The position numbers and the translations under genes were made by a program. From Aphanothece sacrum FPU1 (GTDB lineage Bacteria; Cyanobacteriota; Cyanobacteriia; Cyanobacteriales; Microcystaceae), in assembly GCF_003864295.1 (NCBI RefSeq), contig NZ_BDQK01000001.1, positions 372,001 to 436,000 of the forward strand: 64,000 nucleotides of DNA, given 5' to 3'. The notes under the pieces were generated by a model. The model made no database searches. It was not told where the DNA came from and saw nothing but the letters and a program-made list of their open reading frames with translations. Positions 4,607-29,721 of this stretch are shown piece after piece; the stretch's first letter is position 1, and each line of letters starts with the position of its first letter.

Positions 4607-6556
4607 TCAGGTTCCCGCAGCAGAAGAACGACGACGACGACGACGAATAATAGGACGTTCAGTTTCACTTTCCATCCCAGCAGAAGGGATAAAATTATCT
4701 TCAGCTCGTTCCTCATCTAATTCTATATCTGATTCTAGAGATTCAGGTATGATCATCGGTTCTGGCACGACTTGCGCCACTTCCTCTGGTATTTCTAACT
4801 CTACTTCTACATCTTCTTTTTGTCTAGACTCGACAGACTTAATTGAAACAAAAACCGATTTAGGGTCTTTAAATTCTCGTTCCACCCGCACTAAAGGAGA
4901 AATACCCATTAACGCATACACATCTTGTTCTAGGGGAGTCATTTCCACCGAAACTCTTTCTATTGGCACTTCTTCCCGACGGATATGACGTTGTATACGC
5001 TCTTTCTTCGGTTCTATCTCTGGTTCTGGCTCATACTCGATTTCTTTAACCCCCAAAGGTGTAATAACTTTTTGGATAGGTTCTTCTTTAATTACCGGCC
5101 CCGGTGGTTGACGACGACGACGACGACGATTATTCGCCGCCATACTTTGTTCTTGATAACTCGGATGGTTCAGTAAATCTAATTGACGGGGAGTATCATT
5201 AAAATCATCGTCATAGACAGATTCTCCAAAGGGTTCACCGAGATCGATGGGTTTCTCCATGGGTTTAGAAATAGCCACAGGAGGAGTAGTAGCAGTGGCT
5301 TCTAGGGCGATTAACTCAGTTTCTCCAGGAAGATGAACTAAATGGCCCAACCCCCCACAAGTGGGACAAGCTTGACCAAATAATTCGTAAATATTTTTCC
5401 CTTGACGCTTGCGAGTCAGTTCTACTAAACCTAACTCAGACAATTGAGCGATTTGCGGTCTAGCTTTGTCAGCTTTGAGAGTTTGATTAAAATGTTCTAA
5501 GAGTTTGAGTTGATCGCGCCTGGTGTCCATATCAATAAAATCCACAATGACCACCCCACCAATGTTGCGTAAACGCAGTTGACGGGCGATTTCTGTAGCT
5601 GCTTCACTATTTGTCCAAAGTACGGTTTCTCGCGCCGTTGCTGAACGGGTAAAGGAACCTGAGTTTACATCAACGACCGTTAATGCTTCAGTTGGTTCAA
5701 TAATGATGTAACCGCCAGAGGGTAAATCTACTCTCGGTTTGAGGGCTTCTCGTACCGCCGCATTGACCCGGAAATAATCCAAAATAGACAAGGTTTCTCG
5801 ATGATGGTCAATAAAGACCCCTTCAGGAGGTTTACCTCCACTCCAAGACATTATATGCTGTTTAACCCGTTTAACCGCCGCTTGAGAGTCTACTACAATG
5901 CGATTCACATCCCCACTGTACATATCCCGTAAGACTCGTTGAATGAAATCATCATCCCGGTTGAGCAAAGAGGGGGGACGAGTAGAGCTACCTTGTAGTT
6001 GAACAGACTCCCATTGTCGTTGGAGAAATTCTAAGTCCTCCATAATGGCTTCTTCGGCTTTACCTTCTGCTTCTGTTCGTACAAGTAAACCCATTCCGGC
6101 CGGTTTAATTAAGATAGCAAGGGCCCGTAAGCGACTTCGTTCATCTTCACTGCGAATGCGTCTCGAAAGATTAACCCCTTTACCATAGGGCATTAAGACT
6201 AAATAACGTCCAGGTAAGGTAATATTGCCGGTTAACCTCGGCCCCTTATTGCCTGTAGGTTCTTTCATTACTTGAACCAGGACTTTTTGTTGCGGGCTTA
6301 ATAATTCAGTGATCGCTCCAGCCGTTTTTTTTAAGCGCAAGGGCCCCAAATCAGTGACATGAATAAATCCGTTACGTTCCGCATCTCCAATATTCACAAA
6401 CGCTGCGTCAATACCTGGAATAACGTTTTCGACAACTCCTAAGTAAATATCGCTGACTTGTTGGTTCCCTGTCGCTACTACTAATTCTTGAATTTGATCT
6501 TCCCAGAAAACAGCAGCAATGTGGTGTTGCTCTGCGATAATAATTTGCTTTGGCAT
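4607..6556 (-). CDS. rne: Ribonuclease E/G
   Basis: Main endoribonuclease of mRNA decay and RNA processing. In the 649 residues I see an S1 domain at about 36-120, the DNase I-like catalytic core with metal-binding Asp296 (VVDVNSGSF) and Asp339 (IVDFIDMD), and the zinc-link CPTCGG at 397-402. The tail is short and disordered, as in cyanobacteria, with arginine clusters near residue 480 and at the extreme C-terminus (RRRRRRSSAAGT). In Anabaena the equivalent C-terminal arginine motif binds PNPase. GAGGGAA precedes the ATG. A long untranslated leader upstream suggests post-transcriptional autoregulation. Confidence 0.96.
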   Translation of the reverse strand: MPKQIIIAEQHHIAAVFWEDQIQELVVATGNQQVSDIYLGVVENVIPGIDAAFVNIGDAERNGFIHVTDLGPLRLKKTAGAITELLSPQQKVLVQVMKEPTGNKGPRLTGNITLPGRYLVLMPYGKGVNLSRRIRSEDERSRLRALAILIKPAGMGLLVRTEAEGKAEEAIMEDLEFLQRQWESVQLQGSSTRPPSLLNRDDDFIQRVLRDMYSGDVNRIVVDSQAAVKRVKQHIMSWSGGKPPEGVFIDHHRETLSILDYFRVNAAVREALKPRVDLPSGGYIIIEPTEALTVVDVNSGSFTRSATARETVLWTNSEAATEIARQLRLRNIGGVVIVDFIDMDTRRDQLKLLEHFNQTLKADKARPQIAQLSELGLVELTRKRQGKNIYELFGQACPTCGGLGHLVHLPGETELIALEATATTPPVAISKPMEKPIDLGEPFGESVYDDDFNDTPRQLDLLNHPSYQEQSMAANNRRRRRRQPPGPVIKEEPIQKVITPLGVKEIEYEPEPEIEPKKERIQRHIRREEVPIERVSVEMTPLEQDVYALMGISPLVRVEREFKDPKSVFVSIKSVESRQKEDVEVELEIPEEVAQVVPEPMIIPESLESDIELDEERAEDNFIPSAGMESETERPIIRRRRRRSSAAGT

Positions 6557-7114
6557 TCAATTCCCTCAAAATTTTGTAACGGACGATGACACTTAACGAA
6601 ATCTAGTGTCTGTCAATTGAATTAGGCAAAAACTGTCAAATTAATCAATCCTATTGACTTCAGGTCAATTCCCAATGAAAAGGTATTCCTACTCATCTTT
6701 ATCCTGACATCCTAACCTGCTTTCGCTATTAGATTAAGCTGACCTATCCCGTCTGAGGAGATGTCTCGCTGGGAAAGGGTGTATCTCTACCCATGTCGAA
6801 AAACGAGAATAGTTATGGACTATACAACAAACCCCTCAGCTATAAAGTGTGCTAGAACTAGCTTTTATTTAAGATGTTTTTTAGACGGATAAGTTGAGAA
6901 CAACAACCAAAAAAATACATAAAGGTTTTATTGGTTTTTTTGAGCGAGGTCACTAACTCACGCAAGTTAATTAAGTTGTGTTACTAAAACATCGCCCTAG
7001 CTAAATTAAGGGACATTAACCTTCTTTGGTGGCCACCATAAAGGGGGGAGGCACAACTTTAAATTGTTTTAACCTGAATATAAACTGAACGGCTCACTTC
7101 TGACAAGGGAGAAA
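6557..7114 (-). promoter_or_regulatory. Long leader/promoter region of rne
   Basis: This 558-base gap between rne and the desulfurase gene has no credible frame. The part nearest rne contains several possible hairpins, including ATTGAC/GTCAAT around 6655-6672 and GGGT/ACCC around 6777-6795, within a structured G/C-richer island at 6710-6800. Long 5' leaders that mediate feedback by RNase E itself are known for cyanobacterial and enterobacterial rne. That this one does so is inference. The distal part (about 6900-7114) lies downstream of the desulfurase stop. Confidence 0.45.
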
Positions 7115-8290
7115 CTACGGAATTTTCGTCATTACCCTCCCTTGTCGCAAAGATTTGATGGTGGCAAGGGTTGATTGTGCCACTCGCTCAATGTCTTCTG
7201 ATGTGGTAAATCGTCCTAACCCAAAACGCAAGGAAGCATAAGCTAGAGACTCATCATGTCCTAATGCAGTTAGAACGTGAGAGGGGGCAGTAACTGTTGA
7301 TGAACAGGCTGACCCTGATGACAACGCCACGATTGATTGTAACCCTAATAACAGGGCTGAGCCGTCAACTCCGGCGACACTGATATTAAGATTACCAGCT
7401 AATCGTTGTGTTCCATGACCATTAAGATAAATGTCGTCTAGTTCTGATAATTGTTTCCACAGGCGATCGCGTAATTGTTCTTGTCGTTGTAACTCCCAGT
7501 CCATTTCTGCGATCGCTAGATCGACGGCTTTAGCAAACCCGACAATTTGGGGTGTATATAAGGTTCCTGATCGCATTCCTCTTTCTTGTCCTCCGCCGTG
7601 TAATTGAGCGGCTAAACGGACTCTAGGGTTACGACGACGAACATATAAGGCCCCGATCCCTTTCGGCCCATAAACTTTATGAGCAGTTAAGGATAGCAAA
7701 TCTATGTTTAATCTTAGCACATCGAGGGGGATTTTGCCAAGAGCTTGCGCTCCATCACTATGAAATAATACGTTATGATTATGACAAATTTCTCCTATTT
7801 TTTCTAAGGGTTGAATGACTCCAATTTCGTTATTGGCGGCCATAACTGAGACTAAAATTGTGTTGGTACGAATAGTTTTTTCTAAGAGTTGTAAGTCAAT
7901 TAATCCATCTTTTTTGACAGGTAAAAAAGTAATTTCAAATCCTAATGTTTCTAAATAATGGCAGGGGTCTAATACGGCTCGATGTTCTGTTTGAACGGTA
8001 ATAATATGTTTACCTTGATGAAAATAAGTCTCTGCTACTCCTTTAATGGCTAAGTTATTTGCTTCAGTTGCCCCACTGGTAAAAACTATTTCTTCGGGGC
8101 TACAATTAATTGCATTAGCAATAGTTTCTCTAGCTTTTTTTATTCCTGCTTCTGCTTCCCATCCATACATATGAGTAATACTCGAAGCGTTGCCAAAGTA
8201 TTCGGTAAAGTAGGGTAACATGGCAGATAGTACCCGTTCGTCCATTGGGGTTGTAGCGTGACAGTCTAAATAAATTGGTCGTTGAGACAT
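7115..8290 (-). CDS. Cysteine desulfurase (NifS/IscS-like)
   Basis: A PLP enzyme that takes sulfur from cysteine for iron-sulfur cluster and thio-cofactor assembly. The PLP lysine is Lys205 in LTAHKVYGPKG and the sulfur-accepting cysteine is Cys329 in SSGSACSS, a group I (IscS/NifS) arrangement. HGGGQERGMRSGT at 231-243 is also typical. The 391-residue length is normal. A SufE-type sulfur acceptor is encoded about 0.7 kb upstream on the same strand, but SufE usually partners SufS, so a functional pair is not assured. Confidence 0.93.
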   Translation of the reverse strand: MSQRPIYLDCHATTPMDERVLSAMLPYFTEYFGNASSITHMYGWEAEAGIKKARETIANAINCSPEEIVFTSGATEANNLAIKGVAETYFHQGKHIITVQTEHRAVLDPCHYLETLGFEITFLPVKKDGLIDLQLLEKTIRTNTILVSVMAANNEIGVIQPLEKIGEICHNHNVLFHSDGAQALGKIPLDVLRLNIDLLSLTAHKVYGPKGIGALYVRRRNPRVRLAAQLHGGGQERGMRSGTLYTPQIVGFAKAVDLAIAEMDWELQRQEQLRDRLWKQLSELDDIYLNGHGTQRLAGNLNISVAGVDGSALLLGLQSIVALSSGSACSSTVTAPSHVLTALGHDESLAYASLRFGLGRFTTSEDIERVAQSTLATIKSLRQGRVMTKIP

Positions 8291-16929: not shown

Positions 16930-17493
16930 TTATGAATTAGTTGTACAATTGTCGGCTGTAACAGAAGAAGTGGTATCACCCTTATAAACACCTCTCCTCA
17001 TAATTCCTAAGCCATCACTAATGACTAAACATTGTTTTTCCCCTTTACCTTTTTCCGTTTGAATGACAATAGTTCCTGAATCAGCTAGGGTAGTATTCCC
17101 TTTATAAGAAAAGGAAACAGTGCTAGGTGTAAGATTATGTTTCATCACCACACCTGTGGGAAGTTGCTTATTAGTAGACGCTAAACAACCCGCATCTTGA
17201 GGAACACTATCAATGGTGGGAGGAGTAACGGAATTATCAAATTTAATTGTGCATTTTTGACCTCGACGAATAGCTTGTCCTTGAGCATCCTGTAAGGCAC
17301 TATAAACCTGATCTACAGCTTGTTTTACCCTGTTTCCTTGTAACATTCCCATCATGCTAGGAGTAGCAATACCTGCTAAAATTCCAGCAATAACGGTAAC
17401 AATAGAAATTTCAAATAAGGTCATGCCACAGTTAGGCTTCTTATTTGCATTCGTTAACAGCAGCAGGTATAAATTCTGTATAATTTTCCGCAA
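16930..17493 (-). CDS. GspH/FimT-like minor prepilin
   Basis: The prepilin motif NCG|MTLFEISIVTVIAGILAG is intact (Glu at +5), followed by VKQAVDQVYSALQDAQGQAIRRGQ, typical of GspH/FimT proteins. An in-frame ATG at 17571 would give an implausibly long leader and a 131-base overlap with the upstream gene. I prefer the TTG at 17493, which gives a 23-residue leader (MRKIIQNLYLLLL...) like those of the two neighbouring prepilins and leaves a 53-base overlap. AAGGAA lies about 13 bases before it. The start is therefore tentative. Confidence 0.75.
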   Translation of the reverse strand: MRKIIQNLYLLLLTNANKKPNCGMTLFEISIVTVIAGILAGIATPSMMGMLQGNRVKQAVDQVYSALQDAQGQAIRRGQKCTIKFDNSVTPPTIDSVPQDAGCLASTNKQLPTGVVMKHNLTPSTVSFSYKGNTTLADSGTIVIQTEKGKGEKQCLVISDGLGIMRRGVYKGDTTSSVTADNCTTNS

Positions 17494-18178
17494 TAATTGA
17501 GGTTTTTCCTTCGATATCATCGGCCAATAGATCTTTGTCCACATCGGTTTGTTTTGTGTTGGTTGAAACATAGGGTTCTCCTATTCGATAGGTAATTTGG
17601 ACTACGTCATAGTTCCTTCCGTTATAGTTGTCAGTCGTGGCAATACGAACAAGACGATAGTTTTTATTAAGTAACTGACGTTCGCCAACAACTTGTACTG
17701 TGACTTTTTTTGCCGTTGTGGTGCCATAGTAGTTTACGTTAACCCAGTCGGCTGTTTTATCACTTTTAAATACCGTATTGCCATTACTGTCAACTTTATA
17801 AGTTTGTAAGGAAATTCCATCAGTAAAAGATGTTGAGTAGGTGGTATTATTTAAAGCCGTAATTAGTTTGCCACCAAATTTATTAGTTGCATTAGCAGTA
17901 GTGGGCATAAGGTAACATATACTTTTAGTCACACCTAAGTTACTAAGTGTTGCATTAGAGGCAACTGCTTGAACCATTTCCACATCTTCTTGAACCCAAA
18001 AATTGGCTTGAGATTCCCTTTCCGCTTTGACTTGCAAAATGGCATTGATCGCCATTGCTTGTAGGGTTCCCATAATAAAGGCAGAAGTTACCAAAATTGA
18101 TACTAAGACTTCAAATAAACTGAAACCTTCGTTTTTCTTCGCTGATTTTTTAAGTAAAAAAAGCCATACTTTCAACAT
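17441..18178 (-). CDS. PilV-like minor prepilin
   Basis: A 245-residue pseudopilin. The short basic leader MLKVWLFLLKKSAKKNEG is cleaved before FSLFEVLVSILVTSAFIMGTLQ, with Glu at +5. The leader closely resembles that of the PilW-like neighbour (MLKIYLQLL), suggesting shared ancestry or co-adaptation. It overlaps the GspH-like gene. A perfect CRP-type palindrome lies 82 bases before its ATG. Confidence 0.82.
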   Translation of the reverse strand: MLKVWLFLLKKSAKKNEGFSLFEVLVSILVTSAFIMGTLQAMAINAILQVKAERESQANFWVQEDVEMVQAVASNATLSNLGVTKSICYLMPTTANATNKFGGKLITALNNTTYSTSFTDGISLQTYKVDSNGNTVFKSDKTADWVNVNYYGTTTAKKVTVQVVGERQLLNKNYRLVRIATTDNYNGRNYDVVQITYRIGEPYVSTNTKQTDVDKDLLADDIEGKTSIIAENYTEFIPAAVNECK

Positions 18179-18259
18179 AAAAATTCCTTTTTACCTCTTT
18201 ATTTCTCAAGTATGAAGGGATCAGATCACCTCTGTCTGTGAGTTGGGTCAGGGGTTTTG

Positions 18260-18275
18260 TGTGATCGAAATCACA
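18260..18275. promoter_or_regulatory. CRP/SyCRP1-type binding site TGTGATCGAAATCACA
   Basis: A perfect match to the TGTGA-N6-TCACA consensus bound by enterobacterial CRP and cyanobacterial SyCRP1. It lies in the 120-base gap between the large pilin-like gene and the PilV-like gene, so it could control the three downstream prepilins. No mRNA start is visible, so activation versus repression cannot be told. SyCRP1 is known to affect pilin-like operons and motility in Synechocystis. Confidence 0.72.
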
Positions 18276-18298
18276 TTAAGGGCATTGAGATAGATAGA

Positions 18299-20164
18299 TT
18301 ATTTACACTTGTCTGGTTCGCTGCCAAACTCGCAAGTAGCATAGCTAGAGGGCGAACTAAGGGTTACGTCGGGCATTCCTTTGGGGATACCAACACCGAG
18401 TTCTGTCCATTTACCCGTTTGTGCCACTAAAGACCCACTTTGACTATTGGATGAGCATTGATTAGTCTTATTCCACGTTTTCACCCAAATTGTTCCCTTG
18501 ACACCTCCTTTACCACTGCCACCACCATTAACTCCCGCGTCATAACCAGGGGCAAATATGAAGCCCTCAAATTGATTATTCCCGTTTAAGCAAATGTTAC
18601 CCGTCCCAGCACGACCAAAAAGCTGGAAATCTGTTGCTTTACACAGATCAGCACTTTTACCTGTGCAACTATGACTGACATCACCCCCTTTCTCTAAATT
18701 GCCTGTAAGGTGAAAAATAACTTTCTGACGTTTGTTATCATCGCTGACAGTATTAACAGTTGCAGTACCCGTAATAGAGGTGATCTCATACTCATAAACA
18801 CAAATGGTTGTGCCATTGACGGTTTCTGTTTTTGTGGGTAAATCCCCTAATCCGGGAAATACCTCCCCTGTGCTATCATTTTTTCCGCAGGTCGTACCAC
18901 CGATAGTTGGGGCGGTAGTTCCTGTTGTACCAGTTCCTGTAGTTCCGGTAGTTCCGGTAGTTCCTGTAGTTCCGGTAGTTCCTGTAGTTCCGGTAGTTCC
19001 TGTAATTCCTGTAGTTCCTGTAGTTCCTGTAGTTCCATTGCCACTATTGCCATTTCTGGCAGCTAGAACAACATCTCCGAAAATACTTTTAACCGCTTGG
19101 TCTACAAACCGATCCATAATACGAGCAATGGTTGAAAAAGCACTGTTATTAGAGTTACTGGTCTTATTACCATTACCATTACCATTACCACTACCATTAC
19201 CACTACCATTACCACTACCACCAACCGTAATCCCTCTTTGATCAGCAAATTTGGTATCAGTCATGAAACCAGCCGTTATGGCAGGTAAATCAGGAAAATC
19301 ATAGGCGACAATAAGGGGTTCTTTAAAAGTAGTTCCACTGGGGATATCTCCATCACTGATGGCTTTGGTTGTTCCTGCAACTACATTAGCTTTAATCTCA
19401 GTCATGGCGGTATCAATTTGCGTTTGAGTCTTCCCACCAAGATCACAATCACTCAGCCAAATATTGGCCGCAAATAAGTTTTTATTTCCGCCAGATTTTT
19501 CCGTATCTCCTTGTTTAATCCATAATCCCGGAACATCACTATCATCTAACTGATTTTTATTTACAGGGATTTCTACTACTACCTGACTCGGAGCTTCTTT
19601 AATATTATTGGTGTTACCCGTCGTATTAGCAACCCCTTGCACTATTAATTTACCCAGTCCTGGAATTTGATTAGGTTTAGTGTAACTAATCATTGTATAT
19701 TCGCCTTGGGTGGGATCATCAGGATTAATCTGTTGCGGGGTCTTATTAGCAAAGGAAATAATGCGATCTTGTGTGGCTGTTTTTGCCGTATCTACCGCAG
19801 TTGCATCACCTGCATTTTGAATTTCACAACTACTATTACTTGCTGTCTGAAAGTCTTTGCCAATGTCTTCGGCGGTATCTTTAACATTAAGCCAATCAAC
19901 ACTATTATATTCAGCTAAGAATTTATTTTGACTCAATAGTTGTTGAATTTGGGTAACAGCAACTCCGGCGGTACTTACCCCTTGTGCTTTGGCTTTTTGG
20001 GCTAAAACTTTTGTTTGTTGGCTTTGGCCTCTAATCATCATTGCGACACCAGTTACCGCCATAACTAAACCAATGGTTAAACAGAAAGCTAAGGCAAATC
20101 CTTTAGGACTGCGTTGAGAGATACGAGTGAGATAAATAAGAGTCAGTTTGTATGGATTATTCAT
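18299..20164 (-). CDS. Large PilX/HpsA-like pseudopilin with repeat tract
   Basis: A 621-residue protein. After the leader (ISQRSPKG, residues 15-22) comes FALAFCLTIGLVMAVTGVAMM, a pilin-like helix, but the +5 residue is Phe rather than Glu, as in some PilX/HpsA-type proteins. The body contains an Asn/Gly-rich tract (about 312-335) and a Gly-Thr-Thr tract (about 377-417), then a cysteine-containing C-terminal domain. It heads the four-gene minor-pilin cluster. The layout resembles Synechocystis pilA9-slr2018 or the hps pseudopilin genes of filamentous cyanobacteria; this comparison is from memory and is inference. Confidence 0.72.
   Translation of the reverse strand: MNNPYKLTLIYLTRISQRSPKGFALAFCLTIGLVMAVTGVAMMIRGQSQQTKVLAQKAKAQGVSTAGVAVTQIQQLLSQNKFLAEYNSVDWLNVKDTAEDIGKDFQTASNSSCEIQNAGDATAVDTAKTATQDRIISFANKTPQQINPDDPTQGEYTMISYTKPNQIPGLGKLIVQGVANTTGNTNNIKEAPSQVVVEIPVNKNQLDDSDVPGLWIKQGDTEKSGGNKNLFAANIWLSDCDLGGKTQTQIDTAMTEIKANVVAGTTKAISDGDIPSGTTFKEPLIVAYDFPDLPAITAGFMTDTKFADQRGITVGGSGNGSGNGSGNGNGNGNKTSNSNNSAFSTIARIMDRFVDQAVKSIFGDVVLAARNGNSGNGTTGTTGTTGITGTTGTTGTTGTTGTTGTTGTTGTGTTGTTAPTIGGTTCGKNDSTGEVFPGLGDLPTKTETVNGTTICVYEYEITSITGTATVNTVSDDNKRQKVIFHLTGNLEKGGDVSHSCTGKSADLCKATDFQLFGRAGTGNICLNGNNQFEGFIFAPGYDAGVNGGGSGKGGVKGTIWVKTWNKTNQCSSNSQSGSLVAQTGKWTELGVGIPKGMPDVTLSSPSSYATCEFGSEPDKCK
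18915..19230. repeat. Intragenic short tandem repeats in the large pseudopilin gene
   Basis: At 18915-19035 a 9-base unit (variants of TTCCTGTAG/TTCCGGTAG) is repeated about a dozen times and encodes the Gly-Thr-Thr tract. At 19160-19230 a second array (ACCATTACC/ACCACTACC) encodes the Asn/Gly/Ser tract. Both keep the frame because the units are multiples of three. Such arrays change length by slippage. Confidence 0.85.
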
Positions 20165-20555: not shown

Positions 20556-21308
20556 ATGAATAGTATTAAAACACTAAAGTCTTTGGCTATTTTCACTATC
20601 ACCTTATCATCAACTGTGTTAGGATTTTTTCCATTGTCTTTAGTCTCATCTAGTGTATCGAATGCCCAAGAAATTAGCTTGAATTTTCCACCAACGGGAA
20701 ACAGAGGGGCCCCCAAAAAAACAGCAGGAGGAGGAACCCGTAGTGATGATATTTCCTGTATTACTAACCAAGAAGGAGAATTACCTTTAGTTGCTTTAAT
20801 GCCTAATCGAGATAATCAAGCAAAGACAGCAACTTCTACTCCTACATTATACTGGTATATACCGACAACAAAGGCAACTCAAGGAGAATTTGTTATAGTT
20901 GATGATAATAATCAGGAGGTTTACCAAACTCAGTTTACTTTACCTAATCGTCCTGGAATTATCAAATTAGAAATTACTAATAAAGCTTCTCTTAAACCAG
21001 GTAAAACCTATACTTGGTCTTTTATGATTATCTGTGATTCTAGTTATCGAAATAGGGATAAATATATAGAGGGAGCGATAGAATATGTTAAGCTTGATCC
21101 TCAATTAGAAACTCAGATTAAAAATACTTCTTCTTCTTTAGCAAAAGCTCAATTATATGCTCAATCTAACCTGTGGAATGAAACTTTACAAGCTATCATT
21201 GAAACACGAGATAAAAATCTTTTAGAATGGCAGGAATTAATGAAATCTGTGGGATTAGAAAAGCTAGTAGATAAGCCTTTTATCGAATGTTGTCAAATAA
21301 AAAATTAA
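20556..21308 (+). CDS. DUF928 family exported protein
   Basis: A 250-residue protein with an N-terminal signal peptide (hydrophobic to about residue 38, possible cleavage after SNAQ) followed by PPTGNRGAPKKTAGGGTR, a DUF928 hallmark. The folded part has LYWYIPTTKATQGEFVI and LKPGKTYTWSFMIICD. The function of the family is unknown; it is almost confined to cyanobacteria and is often near CHASE2 or CHAT-domain genes. Here a CHASE2 cyclase follows 61 bases downstream, after a strong palindrome. Confidence 0.82.
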   Translation: MNSIKTLKSLAIFTITLSSTVLGFFPLSLVSSSVSNAQEISLNFPPTGNRGAPKKTAGGGTRSDDISCITNQEGELPLVALMPNRDNQAKTATSTPTLYWYIPTTKATQGEFVIVDDNNQEVYQTQFTLPNRPGIIKLEITNKASLKPGKTYTWSFMIICDSSYRNRDKYIEGAIEYVKLDPQLETQIKNTSSSLAKAQLYAQSNLWNETLQAIIETRDKNLLEWQELMKSVGLEKLVDKPFIECCQIKN

Positions 21309-21314
21309 GTTATT

Positions 21315-21346
21315 TAGTAGGAGTAATTCATGAATTACTCCTACTA
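21315..21346. terminator. Perfect 32-bp palindrome after the DUF928 gene
   Basis: TAGTAGGAGTAATTCA at 21315-21330 is followed directly by its exact reverse complement. It lies 6 bases after the stop and could act as a transcript-end hairpin. It belongs to the same dispersed family as 31155-31178. Confidence 0.65.
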
Positions 21347-21369: not shown

Positions 21370-23622
21370 ATGTGGAAAAAATTAAAACAGTTTTTTTGGC
21401 AAAGTCGGGGGGTGTGGATAGGGACTCCTACTGTAGCCTCATTAGTGATTATTTTGCGTTTAATGGGAGTTTTGCAAGGGTGGGAATGGGATTTATTTGA
21501 TTTTTATATGAAATCTCGTCCCCCCGAAACTAAAGATAATCGTATTGCCATTATTGGTATTGATGAAAATGACTTAAATCATCTCAATGAATCTATTATT
21601 ACTGACGCAGTTTTAGCCGAATTATTAGAAAAGATAAAAAGTCAAAAACCGAGGGCTATTGGACTTGATATTTATCGAGATTTACCTGTTCCTCCTGGTC
21701 ATAATTCCTTAGTTAATATATTTAAGTCTACCCCTAATTTAGTAGGTATTCAAAAAGTAGCTGGAGAGATGGGACGAGAGACAGTTGCACCTCCTCTTGT
21801 ATTGAAAGATAAGGGACAAGTTGGGGCCAATGATTTGATTTTTGATGCAGATAACCAAGTACGACGGGGATTAATTTCTTTAGATACTACGTCAAGAGAA
21901 ACTATATATAGTTTTAGTTTACATTTAGCCCTTCATTATTTAGAAAAAGAAAATATTAGTCCCGAAATATTAGAAGGAACTGATAATTGGAAACTGGGAA
22001 AAACAGTTTTTTATCCCTTAAACCCTAATGAAGGAAGTTATATTCGCACTGATGCAGGAGGATATCAAGTATTAATTAATTATCGAGGGGGCGATCGCAC
22101 TTTTGAAACCGTTTCTATGACAGATATTTTAGAGAATAAAGTACCTCCTAATTGGGGACGCGATCGTGTTATTTTGATTGGTAAAGTAGGAGAAAGTTTT
22201 AAAGATTTATTTTTTACTCCTTATAGTAGCGGATTGATTGGTTTACCTGAACCAATTGCCGGGGTAGAAATTCATGCTAATTTGACCAGTCAGTTAATTA
22301 GTGCGGCCCTAGAAGGTCGTCCCCTGTTTAAAAGTTGGCCAGATCCGTTAGAATACCTGTGGATCATTTTTTGGTCGGGGGTTGGGGCCACTCTCAGTTG
22401 GCAATTTCGCTATGCAGAAGGAGTTAAATATCTATCTGGGAAGCGATGGGGTAGTATTATCGGGGCCGGTGGGGTTTTAGGGGTCAGTACCTATCTCGCT
22501 TTTCTTAATGGTTGGTGGTTGCCTGTTGTGCCTCCTTTTCTTAGTTTAGCAGGTTCAACGATGGCTATTACTGCTTATGTGGCCCGAACGGCCGGAGAAA
22601 TTCGCAAAACTTTTGGACGTTATCTTACTGATCAAGTGGTGGCTAATTTATTAGAAAATCCTGCTGGGTTAAAGATGGGAGGAGAGAGAAAAAAAATAAC
22701 TATTCTTACTTCTGATTTAAGGGGATTTACGGCCATATCAGAACGTTTGCAACCGGAAGAAGTGGTCAAAATTCTTAACTTTTATTTAGGCCATATGGCA
22801 GAAATTATCACCACTTATCAAGGAACTATTGATGAATTTATGGGAGATGGAATTCTGGTATTATTTGGGGCCCCAACTTCTCAAGAAGATGAGGCACAAC
22901 GGGCCGTTGCTTGTGGGGTTGCTATGCAGTTAGCCATGAAACCTATTAATGAACAGATGAAACAGTGGGATTTACCTAAATTAGAGATGGGTATTGGCAT
23001 TAATACAGGAGAGGTGGTTGTGGGGAATATTGGGTCAGAAAAACGGACTAAATATGGGATAGTAGGATCTCAAGTTAATTTAACTTATCGCATTGAATCT
23101 TATACTCTTGGGGGACAGATTTTGATTTCTGAATCTACTTTAGCAGAAGCAGGATCAATGATAATAATTGAGTCAGAAAAAAAAGTAAAACCTAAAGGAG
23201 TACAAGAACCAATTTCTATTTATGAAGTTGGGGGAATTCAAGGAGACTATAATCTGTTTCTACCGAAAGACAATGAGATTTTCTTATCAGTTACTCAAGA
23301 TATTCCTCTGCAATATAGTATTTTATCAGGAAAAGATATCAAAGAGAGAGTTTATCAAGGAAATTTAGTTCAATTATCTGATAATGGAGGAATGATTCAT
23401 TGTAATCATAATGACCCAGAAGGGTTTCCTTGTGGGATGACCAATATTAAGATAAATTTATTTATTTCATCAGAATTTTCGATAATTAATGAAGATGTTT
23501 ATGCTAAAGTGTTAGAGAAATCTAGTCATAATAGTGGGTTTTATATTCGCTTTACAGCTAAACCCCCAGAAGTTTCTAAGCAATTAGAACTCATTTATCA
23601 AGCTTTGCAATCTAATCAATAA
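21370..23622 (+). CDS. CHASE2-domain class III nucleotide cyclase
   Basis: A 750-residue membrane receptor cyclase. A first helix (about 18-36) is followed by an extracytoplasmic CHASE2 sensor (about 40-320), three membrane helices (about 328-403) and a class III cyclase domain (about 440-600). Metal ligands Asp449 (SDLRGF) and Asp493 (FMGDG) and transition-state Asn570 and Arg574 are present. The purine-selecting positions read Glu489 and Ser567 instead of Lys and Asp/Thr, which suggests guanylyl rather than adenylyl specificity. The C-terminal region (about 645-735) has RVYQGNLVQLSDNGG, loosely PilZ-like. It probably begins a module with the following MBL-fold and cNMP-binding genes. Confidence 0.88.
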   Translation: MWKKLKQFFWQSRGVWIGTPTVASLVIILRLMGVLQGWEWDLFDFYMKSRPPETKDNRIAIIGIDENDLNHLNESIITDAVLAELLEKIKSQKPRAIGLDIYRDLPVPPGHNSLVNIFKSTPNLVGIQKVAGEMGRETVAPPLVLKDKGQVGANDLIFDADNQVRRGLISLDTTSRETIYSFSLHLALHYLEKENISPEILEGTDNWKLGKTVFYPLNPNEGSYIRTDAGGYQVLINYRGGDRTFETVSMTDILENKVPPNWGRDRVILIGKVGESFKDLFFTPYSSGLIGLPEPIAGVEIHANLTSQLISAALEGRPLFKSWPDPLEYLWIIFWSGVGATLSWQFRYAEGVKYLSGKRWGSIIGAGGVLGVSTYLAFLNGWWLPVVPPFLSLAGSTMAITAYVARTAGEIRKTFGRYLTDQVVANLLENPAGLKMGGERKKITILTSDLRGFTAISERLQPEEVVKILNFYLGHMAEIITTYQGTIDEFMGDGILVLFGAPTSQEDEAQRAVACGVAMQLAMKPINEQMKQWDLPKLEMGIGINTGEVVVGNIGSEKRTKYGIVGSQVNLTYRIESYTLGGQILISESTLAEAGSMIIIESEKKVKPKGVQEPISIYEVGGIQGDYNLFLPKDNEIFLSVTQDIPLQYSILSGKDIKERVYQGNLVQLSDNGGMIHCNHNDPEGFPCGMTNIKINLFISSEFSIINEDVYAKVLEKSSHNSGFYIRFTAKPPEVSKQLELIYQALQSNQ

Positions 23623-23623
23623 T

Positions 23624-23763
23624 GTAAGTTGCTAGTTACTCATATTATGGAGATTGAGCCTCCCTAACCCCCCTTATTAAGGGAAGAATAGAAGATAAAG
23701 TCCCCCCTTTTTAATGGTTATTTAGGAGGATCTAAAATGCTAAACTTATAACTAGCAACTTAC
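23624..23763. mobile_element. 140-bp inverted-repeat element after the cyclase gene
   Basis: Terminal inverted repeats of 15 bases (GTAAGTTGCTAGTTA at 23624-23638 and its complement at 23749-23763) bound a non-coding core with CCTCCCTAACCCCCC and GTCCCCCC blocks, common in cyanobacterial dispersed repeats. The left end begins one base after the cyclase stop. No clear target duplication is visible. Confidence 0.6.
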
Positions 23764-23807
23764 GTTCAATAGATTGTTAATTTATTATTAATCAAGATGG
23801 TTTTGTG

Positions 23808-24602
23808 ATGACACAGTTACTATTTTTAGGATCAGGTTCCGCTTTTACTGTTGGTGCAGATAACTTTCATTCTAACATTTTATTGATAACTGAATCAGGA
23901 AAAAAAATGTTAATTGATTGTGGTTCAGATATTAGATTTTCTTTGCATAAAGCAGGGTTTTCTCATCGAGATATTACTGATATTTATATTAGTCATTTAC
24001 ATTCGGATCATGTGGGAGGTTTAGAATTTGTTGGGTTTACTACTAAATTTGATCCTTGTTGTAATCAACCAAATCTTTATTTAAAACAAGACATTGCTGA
24101 TGAAATTTGGACAAATACTTTATCAGGTGGAATGACATCAATTGAAGGAGAAATAGCTAATATACATAGCTTTTTTAATATCTATCCAATTGAGAAAAAT
24201 GGTTTTATTTGGCACAATATAAAATTTGACTTAATCAAAGTTACTCATATTAATAATGGGAAATTTATCATGCCTACATATGGCTTATTTTTTAACCTTA
24301 ATGGGACTAACATATTTTTAACTACTGATACTCAATTTTGTTATGAAGAAGTAAAAGAACTCTACGAAAAATCTGATTTAATTTTTCATGATTGTGAAAT
24401 TTCTAAATATCCCACTCCTGTTCATGCACATTATGAAGATTTAGTCAATTTACCCATTAGTATTAAACAAAAAATGTGGCTTTATGGTTATCAACCAGGG
24501 GAATTACCACTAGCAGAAAAAGACGGATTTTTAGGTTTTGTTAAACGGGGGCAAATATTTAATTTTCAAGAAATAAACCAGCATTTGCTTAAATATCAAT
24601 AA
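23808..24602 (+). CDS. MBL-fold metallohydrolase
   Basis: A 264-residue metallo-beta-lactamase-fold enzyme of the RNase Z / cyclic-nucleotide phosphodiesterase type. GSGSAF at the N-terminus, DCG at about 38-40, HLHSDHVGG giving two-metal ligands His64, His66, Asp68 and His69 (counted from the GTG one codon upstream), and the later TTDTQF, FHDCEI and HAHYEDL supply the remaining ligands. The flexible arm of true RNase Z is not obvious. Its position between a cyclase and a cNMP-binding protein suggests it may hydrolyse a cyclic nucleotide; this is inference. I prefer the ATG at 23808 over the overlapping GTG at 23805. Confidence 0.83.
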   Translation: MTQLLFLGSGSAFTVGADNFHSNILLITESGKKMLIDCGSDIRFSLHKAGFSHRDITDIYISHLHSDHVGGLEFVGFTTKFDPCCNQPNLYLKQDIADEIWTNTLSGGMTSIEGEIANIHSFFNIYPIEKNGFIWHNIKFDLIKVTHINNGKFIMPTYGLFFNLNGTNIFLTTDTQFCYEEVKELYEKSDLIFHDCEISKYPTPVHAHYEDLVNLPISIKQKMWLYGYQPGELPLAEKDGFLGFVKRGQIFNFQEINQHLLKYQ

Positions 24603-24632
24603 ATAAGAAAGATTTGTGAGGAGTGTTTTATT

Positions 24633-25256
24633 GTGTTTAATGTAGTAGACGGATTAACTCAAATAAACAAAGTTTTGGAAAATATTAAATTTCCTATTGG
24701 AACTAATGAAATTTCTCTAATTTACTGGTTGCAAATAGTTTTTTATTTAATTTTTATTGTTGTTTTAACTAATTATTTTAATCGAATTCTGAATCTAAAT
24801 CTACATATTAGAAAAATAATTGAAATCGGCAAATTGAAAAAATTAAAAGAATCTGATATCGTATTCCGAGAAAATGATCCAGGTGATGCTTTTTATGTTA
24901 TCCTTGAAGGATCAGTGGAAATTTTTACAAAAAAATTAGGAAAAACCCTAGCTATTTTACAAACGGGCAATTTTTTTGGAGAACTTGCCTTAATCTTAGG
25001 AATTCGTCGTAGTGCGACAGTAAAAGCATTAGAAGATACCTTATTATTTTCTATTAATAGTAAACAGTTTGAAAAGATTTTAAGAGACAATTCTATTCTA
25101 CATGAATTAATTATTCAGGAATTAGCCAAAAATCAAGAAGAACTTCACAAAAGACGAGAAGAATTGCGAAAACACGGGTTATTAACATCAGATGAAGAAA
25201 ATACCCATATTGTGGCTTGGCTTCGGAAACGTTTAAATAATATATTAAATTTTTAG
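24633..25256 (+). CDS. Membrane-anchored cyclic nucleotide-binding protein
   Basis: A 207-residue protein with one hydrophobic helix (about 28-47), a CNB domain (about 62-150) and a charged helix (about 155-185) rich in Glu and Arg. The phosphate-binding cassette FFGELALILGIRRSATV has the Glu117 and Arg126 expected for cNMP binding. There is no HTH domain, so it is not a CRP regulator. The GTG start is supported by GAGGAG 9 bases before it. It lies 30 bases after the MBL-fold gene. It probably senses the product of a neighbouring cyclase at the membrane; the output is unknown. Confidence 0.85.
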   Translation: MFNVVDGLTQINKVLENIKFPIGTNEISLIYWLQIVFYLIFIVVLTNYFNRILNLNLHIRKIIEIGKLKKLKESDIVFRENDPGDAFYVILEGSVEIFTKKLGKTLAILQTGNFFGELALILGIRRSATVKALEDTLLFSINSKQFEKILRDNSILHELIIQELAKNQEELHKRREELRKHGLLTSDEENTHIVAWLRKRLNNILNF

Positions 25257-25266
25257 ATTAAAATCT

Positions 25267-26250
25267 TTAATATTTAATGGCATTAGCTTGTAGAAATACT
25301 CCTAAATCTTCAAATGTAATCCCATAGGTAATGGTCGGGTTATCATATCCTTTTAGTTTCACCGTATATTGATTAAAAATACTTTTAGTTTGTTCTAAAT
25401 CAGCCAAATATTGATAAGTTTGCTCCCCAACAGCAATATCTAACCCTAATTCTTTCGTAGCAGATTCTAGACGAAAAGCAGCATTTACCGTATCCCCAAT
25501 AGCAGTATAATCAGGATGATCCCCACTGCCCGTATTTCCCACCATCGCATAACCTGTATTAATTCCTACCCCAATAGCTAATTCAAAAGGGACGGGATAT
25601 TGTTGACTTAAACGACGAGTCATTTTATTAATATTTCTGACAGCTTGAAAAATATGCATAATATCAGCTTGATTAACAGTTTCTTGACCATGAAACCAAA
25701 TAGCCATCACCGCATCACCAATATATTTATCTACCCAACTTCCCGATTGACGAATAATATTTCCTGATTCACGAAACCAATTACCTATCAAAGAAGATAA
25801 GATCTTGTCATCAAGTTGTCTAGCTAAGGTAGTAAAGTTACGCATATCTACTACCATGACAGAGGTGAGACGACGTTCATGTAAAACAACTGTGTCTCGT
25901 TCTATGGTATTTCTATTATAATCCGTAGAGCGATCGGGTAAGGAACTATAAAAGTCTACTTCTGTCTTCCCAAAGGTAATTTGATCTCCATTGTGTAGGG
26001 TGACAGGAATTGTCACTCGACGACCATTTACAAATGTTCCATTACTACTTCCTAAATCAATCAAAAAAAATTCACCCGTTTCCGTCGATTGTAAAATCGC
26101 ATGATTACGGGAAATAGAGTAATCACCAATGACAAAATCATTCTCTTTGTCACGGCCAATCGTCCAATAATTTCTCCCAACTAAGGGAAAATTGCGATCA
26201 CCTTTAGCACTATGTAACAGTAAATGGGGGGGGATTCCTAGCTTTTTCAC
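25267..26250 (-). CDS. FHA-domain class III adenylate cyclase
   Basis: A 327-residue soluble protein. An FHA phosphothreonine-binding domain (about 10-99, with GR at 32-33, SRNHA and SSNGTFVNG) precedes a class III cyclase domain (about 125-300). Metal ligands are Asp135 (VVDMRNF) and Asp179 (YIGDA). Purine-selecting Lys175 and Asp253 and transition-state Asn256 and Arg260 are all present, as in adenylyl cyclases. It is convergent with the CNB gene, with stops about 10 bases apart. The FHA domain suggests regulation by Ser/Thr kinases. Confidence 0.9.
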   Translation of the reverse strand: MKKLGIPPHLLLHSAKGDRNFPLVGRNYWTIGRDKENDFVIGDYSISRNHAILQSTETGEFFLIDLGSSNGTFVNGRRVTIPVTLHNGDQITFGKTEVDFYSSLPDRSTDYNRNTIERDTVVLHERRLTSVMVVDMRNFTTLARQLDDKILSSLIGNWFRESGNIIRQSGSWVDKYIGDAVMAIWFHGQETVNQADIMHIFQAVRNINKMTRRLSQQYPVPFELAIGVGINTGYAMVGNTGSGDHPDYTAIGDTVNAAFRLESATKELGLDIAVGEQTYQYLADLEQTKSIFNQYTVKLKGYDNPTITYGITFEDLGVFLQANAIKY

Positions 26251-29218: not shown

Positions 29219-29721
29219 TAGCAATCGCTAGGGCGATTAGGACATAGAATAGAGAAAGACCCTTAAACTTTTCTTCTCTATGGCTAAACCCTACAGTTAT
29301 GACCTGCGCCAGAAAGTCATTAATGCGGTCTCGCTGCGCGAGTGCGAAAGCACCGAGCTTGATGGACTCAAAAAGAGTGAAGCAAGCGAACTATTCAACA
29401 TTAGTCGTAATACCATAGATTTATGGCTGAAGCGTCTTAAAGAAACAGGAGACTTCGCTAGACAGAAATTCTCTGAAGAAATAGCTAGATATAAACCTGA
29501 GCAAAGAGTTTATATAGATGAGGCGGGCATGGATAATAGAGAAGATTATGGCTATGGTTATAATGAAAGAGGAAAACGTTTTTATGCATTAATAAAATTG
29601 AGCGATGCTGGTCATGGTTAAAGAGTCGAATTCGTAAAAAAATTAGTCAGTTTGACTGTCTCCGGGATGCCATGGAAGATGTGCTTCGCACAGTGTCCTA
29701 ACCGCCTTGGCGGTTGCTATA
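29217..29721 (+). mobile_element. Internally deleted IS630-family element
   Basis: Both ends are preserved as 28-base imperfect inverted repeats, starting TATAGCAATCGC at 29217 and ending in the complement of TATAGCAACCGC at 29721, beginning and ending in TA as expected for TA-targeting IS630/Tc1 elements. The body keeps only the first part and the last codons of the transposase. At about 505 bp it is roughly half the usual length, so it is a non-autonomous, MITE-like derivative. Confidence 0.82.
29280..29701 (+). pseudogene. IS630 transposase remnant
   Basis: The first 113 codons start MAKPYSYDLRQKVINAV, the IS630 HTH region (SEASELFNISRNTIDLWLKRLKETG). They then jump directly to the catalytic-core opening VYIDEAGMDNREDYGYGYNERGKR, where YIDEAG holds the first DDE Asp. 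The frame ends in TAA at 29619. The true C-terminus (KSRIRKKISQFDCLRDAMEDV) follows in another frame to 29701. At least two internal deletions have removed most of the HTH-DDE linker and the catalytic core, so it is non-functional. Confidence 0.85.

Follow-up and report, generated by a model that had tools for sequence, protein, structure and literature searches.

Apyc1, an enzyme of the metallo-beta-lactamase (MBL) fold, cleaves all cyclic nucleoside monophosphates (cNMPs), and the report by Hobbs et al. (2022, PMC9117128), in the portions considered here, mentions bacterial relatives whose role is left open, as well as the possibility that host Apyc1 enzymes regulate Pycsar or other cNMP signalling. 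On the cyanobacterial side, the part of a 2014 review relevant here gives Slr2100 as the sole known cyclic GMP (cGMP) phosphodiesterase of the phylum (PMC4284465), and a 2023 review states in the corresponding passage that few bacterial cGMP targets have been identified, cyanobacteria being no different (PMC10117731). Here we describe a locus of Aphanothece sacrum FPU1, lying in a stretch of 64,000 nucleotides (nt) of contig NZ_BDQK01000001.1 (positions 372,001 to 436,000, hereafter the window), in which plus-strand genes for a DUF928 protein, a predicted CHASE2 guanylyl cyclase, an Apyc1-family MBL-fold protein and a transmembrane (TM) protein with a cyclic-nucleotide-binding (CNB) domain follow one another. 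We read it as a conserved cGMP-signalling operon of DUF928 protein, cyclase and predicted phosphodiesterase, which in some relatives also includes a bacterial cyclic-nucleotide-gated (bCNG) channel and in this genome a pore-less derivative of one; on sequence evidence we give this reading a probability of roughly 0.6. bCNG channels belong to the MscS superfamily and carry a C-terminal CNB domain; they were reportedly treated by Caldwell in 2010.

Results and discussion

A conserved neighbourhood of CHASE2 cyclase and MBL-fold genes

The first-pass annotation of this DNA had described a compact module of two cyclases, an MBL-fold hydrolase and a membrane CNB protein; all four open reading frames were found where it placed them and on the strands given, and its description of these genes holds, while its interpretation is partly supported. 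The CHASE2 cyclase gene (21370..23622, plus strand) is followed after 182 nt by the MBL gene (23805..24602, plus strand), and the conservation of this pair was followed across MBL loci with at least 51% identity to the window's protein (range 51-100%). These amount to 35 including the window: a phylum-wide draw of 386 genomes contributed 16 genes from 15 genomes, named contigs seven loci and the 50 genomes of the family 13 more, and one duplicate was removed. A CHASE2 cyclase adjoins the MBL gene in 31 of the 35 distinct loci, a grouping beyond chance, and in 30 of these 31 it immediately precedes the MBL gene in the same orientation, at a distance of 2-182 nt; in L141 the cyclase stands behind the DUF928 gene. 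In L137 the CHASE2 cyclase gene (5970-8212) is split over two overlapping frames.

Within the window's order the arrangement occurs in six families (f1, f4, f5, f13, f15 and f17), and it recurs in records whose titles name Leptolyngbyaceae and Pseudanabaenales (L027, L029); it is therefore conserved beyond close relatives, a point on which the earlier proposal had been made to hinge. Pairwise distances among MBL proteins agree with those among the cyclases (Mantel r 0.83, none of 9999 permutations as high), the 32 rows of this comparison including one duplicate, L136, which is the same contig region as L026 and is excluded from the 35 and the 31; joint vertical descent alone would also give such agreement. 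No cyclase directly adjoins the MBL gene in two Magnetococcales relatives (L032 and L034, 40-42% identity) or in the five distant relatives from the same phylum that were read (L055-L059), with a cyclase about 2 kb away in L056 and, on the other strand, about 2 kb from the MBL gene in G029. Further distant matches (L021-L024) were taken as positions only.

As a comparison set, 20 CHASE2 cyclase loci without an MBL gene (L090-L109) were picked by hand, and not at random, from the upper part of the match list; one genome (G078) supplies two of them, and L105, L108 and L109 come from genomes with an MBL gene elsewhere.

The MBL-fold protein belongs to the Apyc1 family

The MBL-fold protein matches PF23023 (Anti-Pycsar_Apyc1) with 93.1 bits against a cut-off of 50, its residues 1-256 covering positions 1-248 of the 250 of the profile, and by this match it is a member of the Apyc1 family and a predicted cyclic-nucleotide phosphodiesterase. 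The HxHxDH motif named in the first-pass annotation is present as H64-x-H66-x-D68-H69, accompanied by E74, H148, D175 and H207, and the metal ligands and E74 are kept in 34 of the 35 loci. In Apyc1 the HxHxDH motif binds zinc and E74 is catalytic, according to the sections of PMC9117128 used here; the position of Apyc1 Y112, which comes from the opposing protomer, is uncertain in alignments to the three Apyc1 chains.

The only Protein Data Bank (PDB) sequences matching the MBL protein at E<=1e-15 are the three Apyc1 structures 7u2r, 7u2s and 7t28. An AlphaFold2 model built from 28 sequences (pLDDT 89.7) superposes on 7u2r with a root-mean-square deviation (rmsd) of 1.7 A over 239 residues and gives Z scores of 32.1 (7u2r), 31.3 and 28.8 with the three Apyc1 structures, against at most 24.9 for other MBL folds, including 24.7 for YhfI and at most 23.0 for RNase Z-type structures.

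MBL folds are versatile, and the enzyme could act on something other than a cyclic nucleotide, such as RNA 3' ends, a lactone or a cyclic phosphate, its place beside the cyclase being mere co-inheritance; the RNase Z profile TIGR02651 does give it 63 bits, and a cyclase is missing at four of the 35 MBL loci. That score (62.6 bits) is nevertheless far below the profile's cut-off of 292.95, the genome encodes a separate RNase Z scoring 373.7 bits, and the nearest solved structures are Apyc1 phosphodiesterases. RNase Z identity is unlikely on these profile scores, and another substrate altogether improbable.

Phage and plasmid collections were also searched for the origin of the gene. The phage records matching the MBL protein number 39, all from Bacillus phages (27.6-31.9% identity in the 15 of the 39 listed), and the plasmid records 11, at 24-40% identity; an origin from a phage or plasmid was set aside, no close mobile copy being present in the collections searched.

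The CHASE2 cyclase is a predicted guanylyl cyclase

Both the sensor and the class III catalytic domain of a Cya2-type guanylyl cyclase are present in the upstream protein (PF05226, 225 bits; PF00211, 88 bits), CHASE2 spanning residues 23-340 and the catalytic domain residues 441-595. The metal residues Asp449 and Asp493 are found together with Gly563, Asn570 and Arg574, and the guanine-type Glu489 is encoded at 22834-22836. The best natural PDB match of the catalytic domain is 2w01 (Cya2 of Synechocystis, 283 bits), and in the alignment the GTIDEFMGDG of the window's cyclase places its Glu at the position of Cya2 E488; the top PDB row, 6fht, is an engineered Cya2 fusion in which this Glu, shared by 2w01 and the window's protein, is replaced by Lys. 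The exchange E488K converts Cya2 to an adenylyl cyclase (PMC5995499, in the part considered). Given the closest natural structure and the Glu at this position, the enzyme is probably of Cya2 type with cGMP as its predicted product, and the signal of the locus is probably cGMP. The roughly 130 C-terminal residues (23230-23619) have no Pfam match and look PilZ-like by eye, which is an impression only.

Glu and Gly occupy the two base-reading positions in all 31 MBL-linked cyclases and in 12 of the 20 cyclases of the comparison set. Five cyclases of the latter set, none of them MBL-adjacent, have Lys (three) or Asp (two) replacing the base-reading Glu (L091, L099, L105, L108 and L109). The earlier proposal that these genes make and break a cyclic nucleotide is thus well supported at the sequence level by Apyc1 family membership, the guanine-type cyclase and the conserved pairing, with cGMP as the presumed product of the one enzyme and substrate of the other.

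The CNB protein is the remnant of a channel

The gene behind the MBL gene (24633..25256, plus strand) starts 30 nt after the MBL stop, as had been noted before, and encodes a protein with a CNB domain (PF00027, 80 bits) in which the cassette Glu117 and Arg126, previously called intact, are indeed present in GELALILGIRRSATVKA. This domain is 38-63% identical to the C-termini of proteins mostly about 490 residues long (matches at E<=1e-30). Five of these relatives were scanned (L044, L042, L130, L143 and L134), and in each PF00924 exceeds its cut-off; PF21088 does so in L044 and L042, falls narrowly short in L130 and L134, and is not listed for L143. These five are MscS channels with a CNB domain, of bCNG type.

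Neither Pfam nor a hidden Markov model (HMM) of 33 bCNG sequences detects MscS pore helices or the beta-domain (PF21088, PF00924) in the window's protein. Its residues 8-57 match positions 9-58 of the HMM (19.7 bits) and residues 56-206 match positions 337-487 (221.6 bits, the bCNG-type C-terminal CNB domain), with no match between; the N-terminal part alone reaches 33.0 bits, whereas none of 500 shuffles exceeds 8.1. TM1 (residues 8-57; 24654-24803, plus strand) is thus joined directly to the CNB domain and the C-terminal tail, and the missing positions 59-336 correspond to TM2, the TM3 pore, and the beta and C-terminal MscS domains. On this alignment the protein derives from a bCNG channel by an in-frame loss of about 278 residues, which fused TM1 to the CNB domain. 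Its predicted structure (pLDDT 76, pTM 0.50) has a single helix over residues 29-65 leading from TM1 into the CNB domain.

No other TM1-CNB fusion was found among the bCNG matches of the phylum draw and the family genomes. Pore loss and decay happen elsewhere too, since the channel gene of G406 (L149:7175-8618) is broken into two frames, one for the MscS part and the other for the CNB part, and G312 has a 167-codon frame (L157:1776-2276) matching only bCNG positions 328-487, with nothing further in the 5 kb read; the latter is the nearest case to the window's truncation, but has no match to TM1. The channel G396:C6 is cut by the end of its contig. In the window's own genome the family search at E<=1e-30 gave only the window copy and no intact bCNG elsewhere. 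Eight CNB places were recorded in this genome, of which the window's and two others were inspected, one of the latter encoding a CNB protein of 438 residues in a frame of 466 codons, which by eye resembles a phosphatase, and the other a short CNB protein.

Full-length channels accompany the cluster in relatives. A complete bCNG gene lies in the cluster in 8 of the 34 relatives, a lower bound because some contigs end behind the MBL gene: directly downstream of the MBL gene in L041, L042 (two copies), L044, L130, L131, L132 and L133, and upstream of the DUF928 gene in L134. A channel adjoins in seven of the 31 MBL-linked loci versus none of the 20 MBL-less cyclase loci (p 0.034), where no MscS-CNB gene appears in the neighbourhoods displayed. 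The two genes also co-occur across genomes, bCNG (called at E<=1e-30) being present in 16 of 18 MBL genomes versus 2 of 32 others in the family, and in 10 of 15 versus 20 of 371 in the phylum draw; five family genomes belong to both sets, and nine genomes having only a distant MBL relative were counted as without. At another locus (L139:7003-8658) an MscS channel without a CNB domain stands directly downstream of the MBL gene.

In a quick channel tree, with SH-aLRT support only, the MBL-adjacent channels, represented by nine rows from eight loci, all fall on one side of a supported branch (SH-aLRT 98), and the window copy lies on the other with ten further channels. Either the channel neighbourhood thus has two or more origins, or an old paralogue was swapped. 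The earlier claim that the CNB protein senses the nucleotide keeps its basis in so far as the protein derives from a cyclic-nucleotide-gated channel that is clustered with the pair in relatives, but the pore is lost here, so that it would act at most as a membrane-tethered cGMP receptor or buffer.

The cyclase and the MBL enzyme might form a working cGMP unit with the CNB gene a decaying, functionless leftover: the pore, beta and C-terminal MscS domains are gone, the end branch of the copy is 0.45 versus a median of 0.1, its phosphate-binding cassette (PBC) has drifted to RRSAT versus PRTA or PRSA in the relatives (33 of 42 rows readable), and the fusion has no counterpart among the bCNG matches of the phylum draw and the family, while the split channel of G406 and the CNB-only fragment of G312 show pore loss and decay in other genomes. 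However, the frame is open without a stop and has GGAG 9 nt ahead of its start codon, the cassette Glu and Arg and the C-terminal tail are retained, the gene begins shortly behind the MBL gene, and five full-length channels have end branches equal or longer (0.45-0.82). The residue after the PBC Arg is Ser in the window and Thr or Ser in the readable full-length rows (33 of 42), a hydroxyl residue which, from work on PKG and CNG channels, we take to be compatible with cGMP and not diagnostic of it. We regard a functionless leftover as a serious contender, somewhat short of even odds; it would leave the cyclase and MBL part of the preferred operon reading in place.

A second alternative turns on the layout of the same protein. 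PycTM effectors are CNB proteins with a TM helix, and the locus might be a Pycsar-like anti-phage system, in which a cyclic pyrimidine made by the cyclase on infection would activate a membrane-damaging TM-CNB effector and the Apyc1-like enzyme would prevent self-activation. The MBL family takes its name from its action against Pycsar, the CNB protein has the TM and CNB layout, host regulation of Pycsar is among the possibilities raised in the portions of PMC9117128 considered, and the PADLOC profiles for PycC and the TIR effector score 81 bits with the cyclase and 57-59 bits with the CNB protein. These matches, however, are to generic cyclase and CNB domains, the FHA cyclase next to the CNB gene scoring about as high (79 bits); the CHASE2 cyclase is a close relative of Cya2 whose guanine-type Glu and Gly speak against a pyrimidine-specific enzyme; the CNB protein derives from a channel; no plasmid or phage record yielded a close relative of the MBL gene; and the distances among the cyclases are congruent with those among the MBL proteins. 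We consider an anti-phage system distinctly improbable.

DUF928 gene and intergenic elements

Upstream of the cyclase lies the gene of a DUF928 protein (PF06051, 176 bits; 20556..21308, plus strand), whose N-terminus resembles a signal peptide by eye; the protein is a possible periplasmic partner that might contact the CHASE2 sensor. In 27 of the 31 MBL-linked loci a DUF928 gene lies no more than three genes away from the cyclase, the misses being L040, L132, L135 (where just 0.9 kb of upstream sequence is present) and L138, and it adjoins the cyclase in 18 of the 20 chosen loci without an MBL gene. A neighbourhood of this kind was described in one species, NOSP7, where a CHASE2 protein and a DUF928 protein are among five closely placed genes (PMC5587647, in the part considered).

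Between these two genes, at 21315..21346 on the plus strand, a 14-pair palindrome with a T-rich tail is either terminator-like or a repeat; it is single-copy in the window, and terminator-like sites are not enriched in the region (4 versus a shuffle mean of 4.6). A repeat-like stretch of 146 nt (23621..23766), whose 18-nt inverted ends are 94% complementary and which is partially matched at four other places in the genome with 76-84% identity, stands directly behind the cyclase stop. Since it makes up most of the gap to the MBL gene, cyclase and MBL gene were probably once about 36 nt apart.

Weighing the operon

Several observations weigh against reading these genes as one cGMP operon. Four of the 35 MBL loci (L041, L050, L052 and L142) are without a CHASE2 cyclase in the stretch read, and the same Cya2-type signature occurs in 12 of the 20 chosen loci without an MBL gene; the MBL neighbour is thus optional, as many Cya2-type cyclases go without it. 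One cyclase-linked MBL gene (L054, 9228-10013) has lost three metal ligands (N64, K69 and S148) and possibly encodes a dead enzyme next to a Cya2-type cyclase; its genome has an intact second copy, that of L041, beside a bCNG channel. The full-length channel is in the cluster in only eight of the 34 relatives, and four of the 20 cyclase loci without an MBL gene (L097 and L101-L103) have a frame that matches the CNB domain but not MscS, two genes away from the cyclase and on the opposite strand. The p-values for co-occurrence ignore kinship; counted by genus within the family, five genera have both genes, one MBL only, one bCNG only and seven neither (p 0.026). Apyc1 is reported as unselective and its relative YhfI as preferring cAMP and cGMP (PMC9117128, in the sections used), so that substrate preference is not readable from the MBL sequence. 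Finally, the palindrome and the 146-nt stretch may divide transcription here, where the operon would call for a shared transcript.

The FHA cyclase and the genomic setting

The convergent neighbour of the CNB gene (25267..26250, minus strand) encodes an FHA domain and a class III cyclase (PF00498, PF00211). The first-pass annotation had counted it into the module, and it does abut the CNB gene, with 10 nt from stop to stop. It lies, however, on the opposite strand and bears the adenylyl-cyclase signature DKYIGD and YTAIGDTVN, Lys (DKYIGD) and Thr (YTAIG) being presumably adenylyl-cyclase residues; among the 34 other MBL loci no FHA match appears in the neighbourhood displayed, which in some cases stops immediately after the MBL gene. 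On its signature and the missing counterparts this cyclase is probably an accidental neighbour outside the unit, and that it serves as a second cyclase of the same module is highly improbable. With guanine-type Glu in the one and Lys and Thr in the other, the CHASE2 and FHA cyclases are predicted to make different nucleotides. The genome (4.49 Mb in 20 contigs) has three class III cyclase domains above the Pfam cut-off, these two and that of a 588-residue protein with the adenylyl-cyclase-type motif DKFIGD.

Elsewhere in the window, 16930-20164 holds a minus-strand group of genes for proteins that look pilin-like by eye, among them one containing an extended run of TGT-type residue repeats, and a fragment of an IS630-type transposase lies at 29280-29621.

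A possible cGMP circuit

In the operon as we envisage it, the DUF928 protein and the extracytoplasmic CHASE2 domain would receive an outside signal, the Cya2-type catalytic domain would convert GTP to cGMP, and the MBL enzyme would hydrolyse cGMP, perhaps cNMPs generally, to the 5'-NMP, setting the basal level and terminating the signal. In some relatives a clustered MscS-CNB channel, opened by cGMP, would complete a circuit that makes, breaks and gates. In this genome the channel is reduced to TM1 and the CNB domain, and binding of cGMP to it would at best yield a tethered receptor or buffer.

Taken further, the locus may represent a cGMP relay within one operon, a counterpart of the triad of cyclase, phosphodiesterase and channel in animal vision, to which an MscS-type channel was apparently recruited more than once, in which the family of phage Apyc1 has an ordinary host role in cGMP turnover, and of which the window preserves a version whose channel was cut to a tethered cGMP-binding domain. 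We offer this tentatively, judging it a little less probable than its negation. A host role for the Apyc1-family enzyme is probable, and the conserved guanylyl-cyclase neighbourhood suggests a function for the bacterial relatives of Apyc1 and makes their role directly testable. Cya2-type cyclases would gain a candidate off-enzyme and a candidate target, and phage Apyc1 would, if the reading is right, belong to a family that ordinarily serves cGMP turnover in hosts.

Comparison with known systems

Each part of the locus belongs to a known family, and the combination was not found in the literature searched except for the DUF928-CHASE2 neighbourhood; no paper describing the operon was found among the titles and abstract openings listed by searches of open-licence PMC papers. 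The MBL protein resembles the Apyc1 enzymes (phage Bsp38/SBSphiJ, Paenibacillus; 7t28, 7u2r, 7u2s) over its whole length, with 26-30% identity and Z 28.8-32.1 in structural alignment, and both HxHxDH and E74 shared; Apyc1, however, is a phage counter-defence gene, whereas the window's is a cellular gene clustered with a predicted guanylyl cyclase. The cyclase shares with Cya2 (sll0646) of Synechocystis PCC 6803 the CHASE2-TM-cyclase architecture, the 2w01-like catalytic domain and the Glu corresponding to position 488, but, unlike that of Cya2, its gene is followed by a candidate phosphodiesterase gene of its own. The CNB protein has a CNB region up to 63% identical to that of bCNG channels, with a recognisable TM1 and a shared C-terminal tail, and differs from them by the loss of model positions 59-336. 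Finally, Pycsar (PycC with PycTM or PycTIR) likewise pairs a class III cyclase with a nearby CNB protein that carries a TM helix, whereas the window combines a guanine-type cyclase bearing CHASE2, a CNB protein derived from a channel, and a predicted phosphodiesterase within the cluster.

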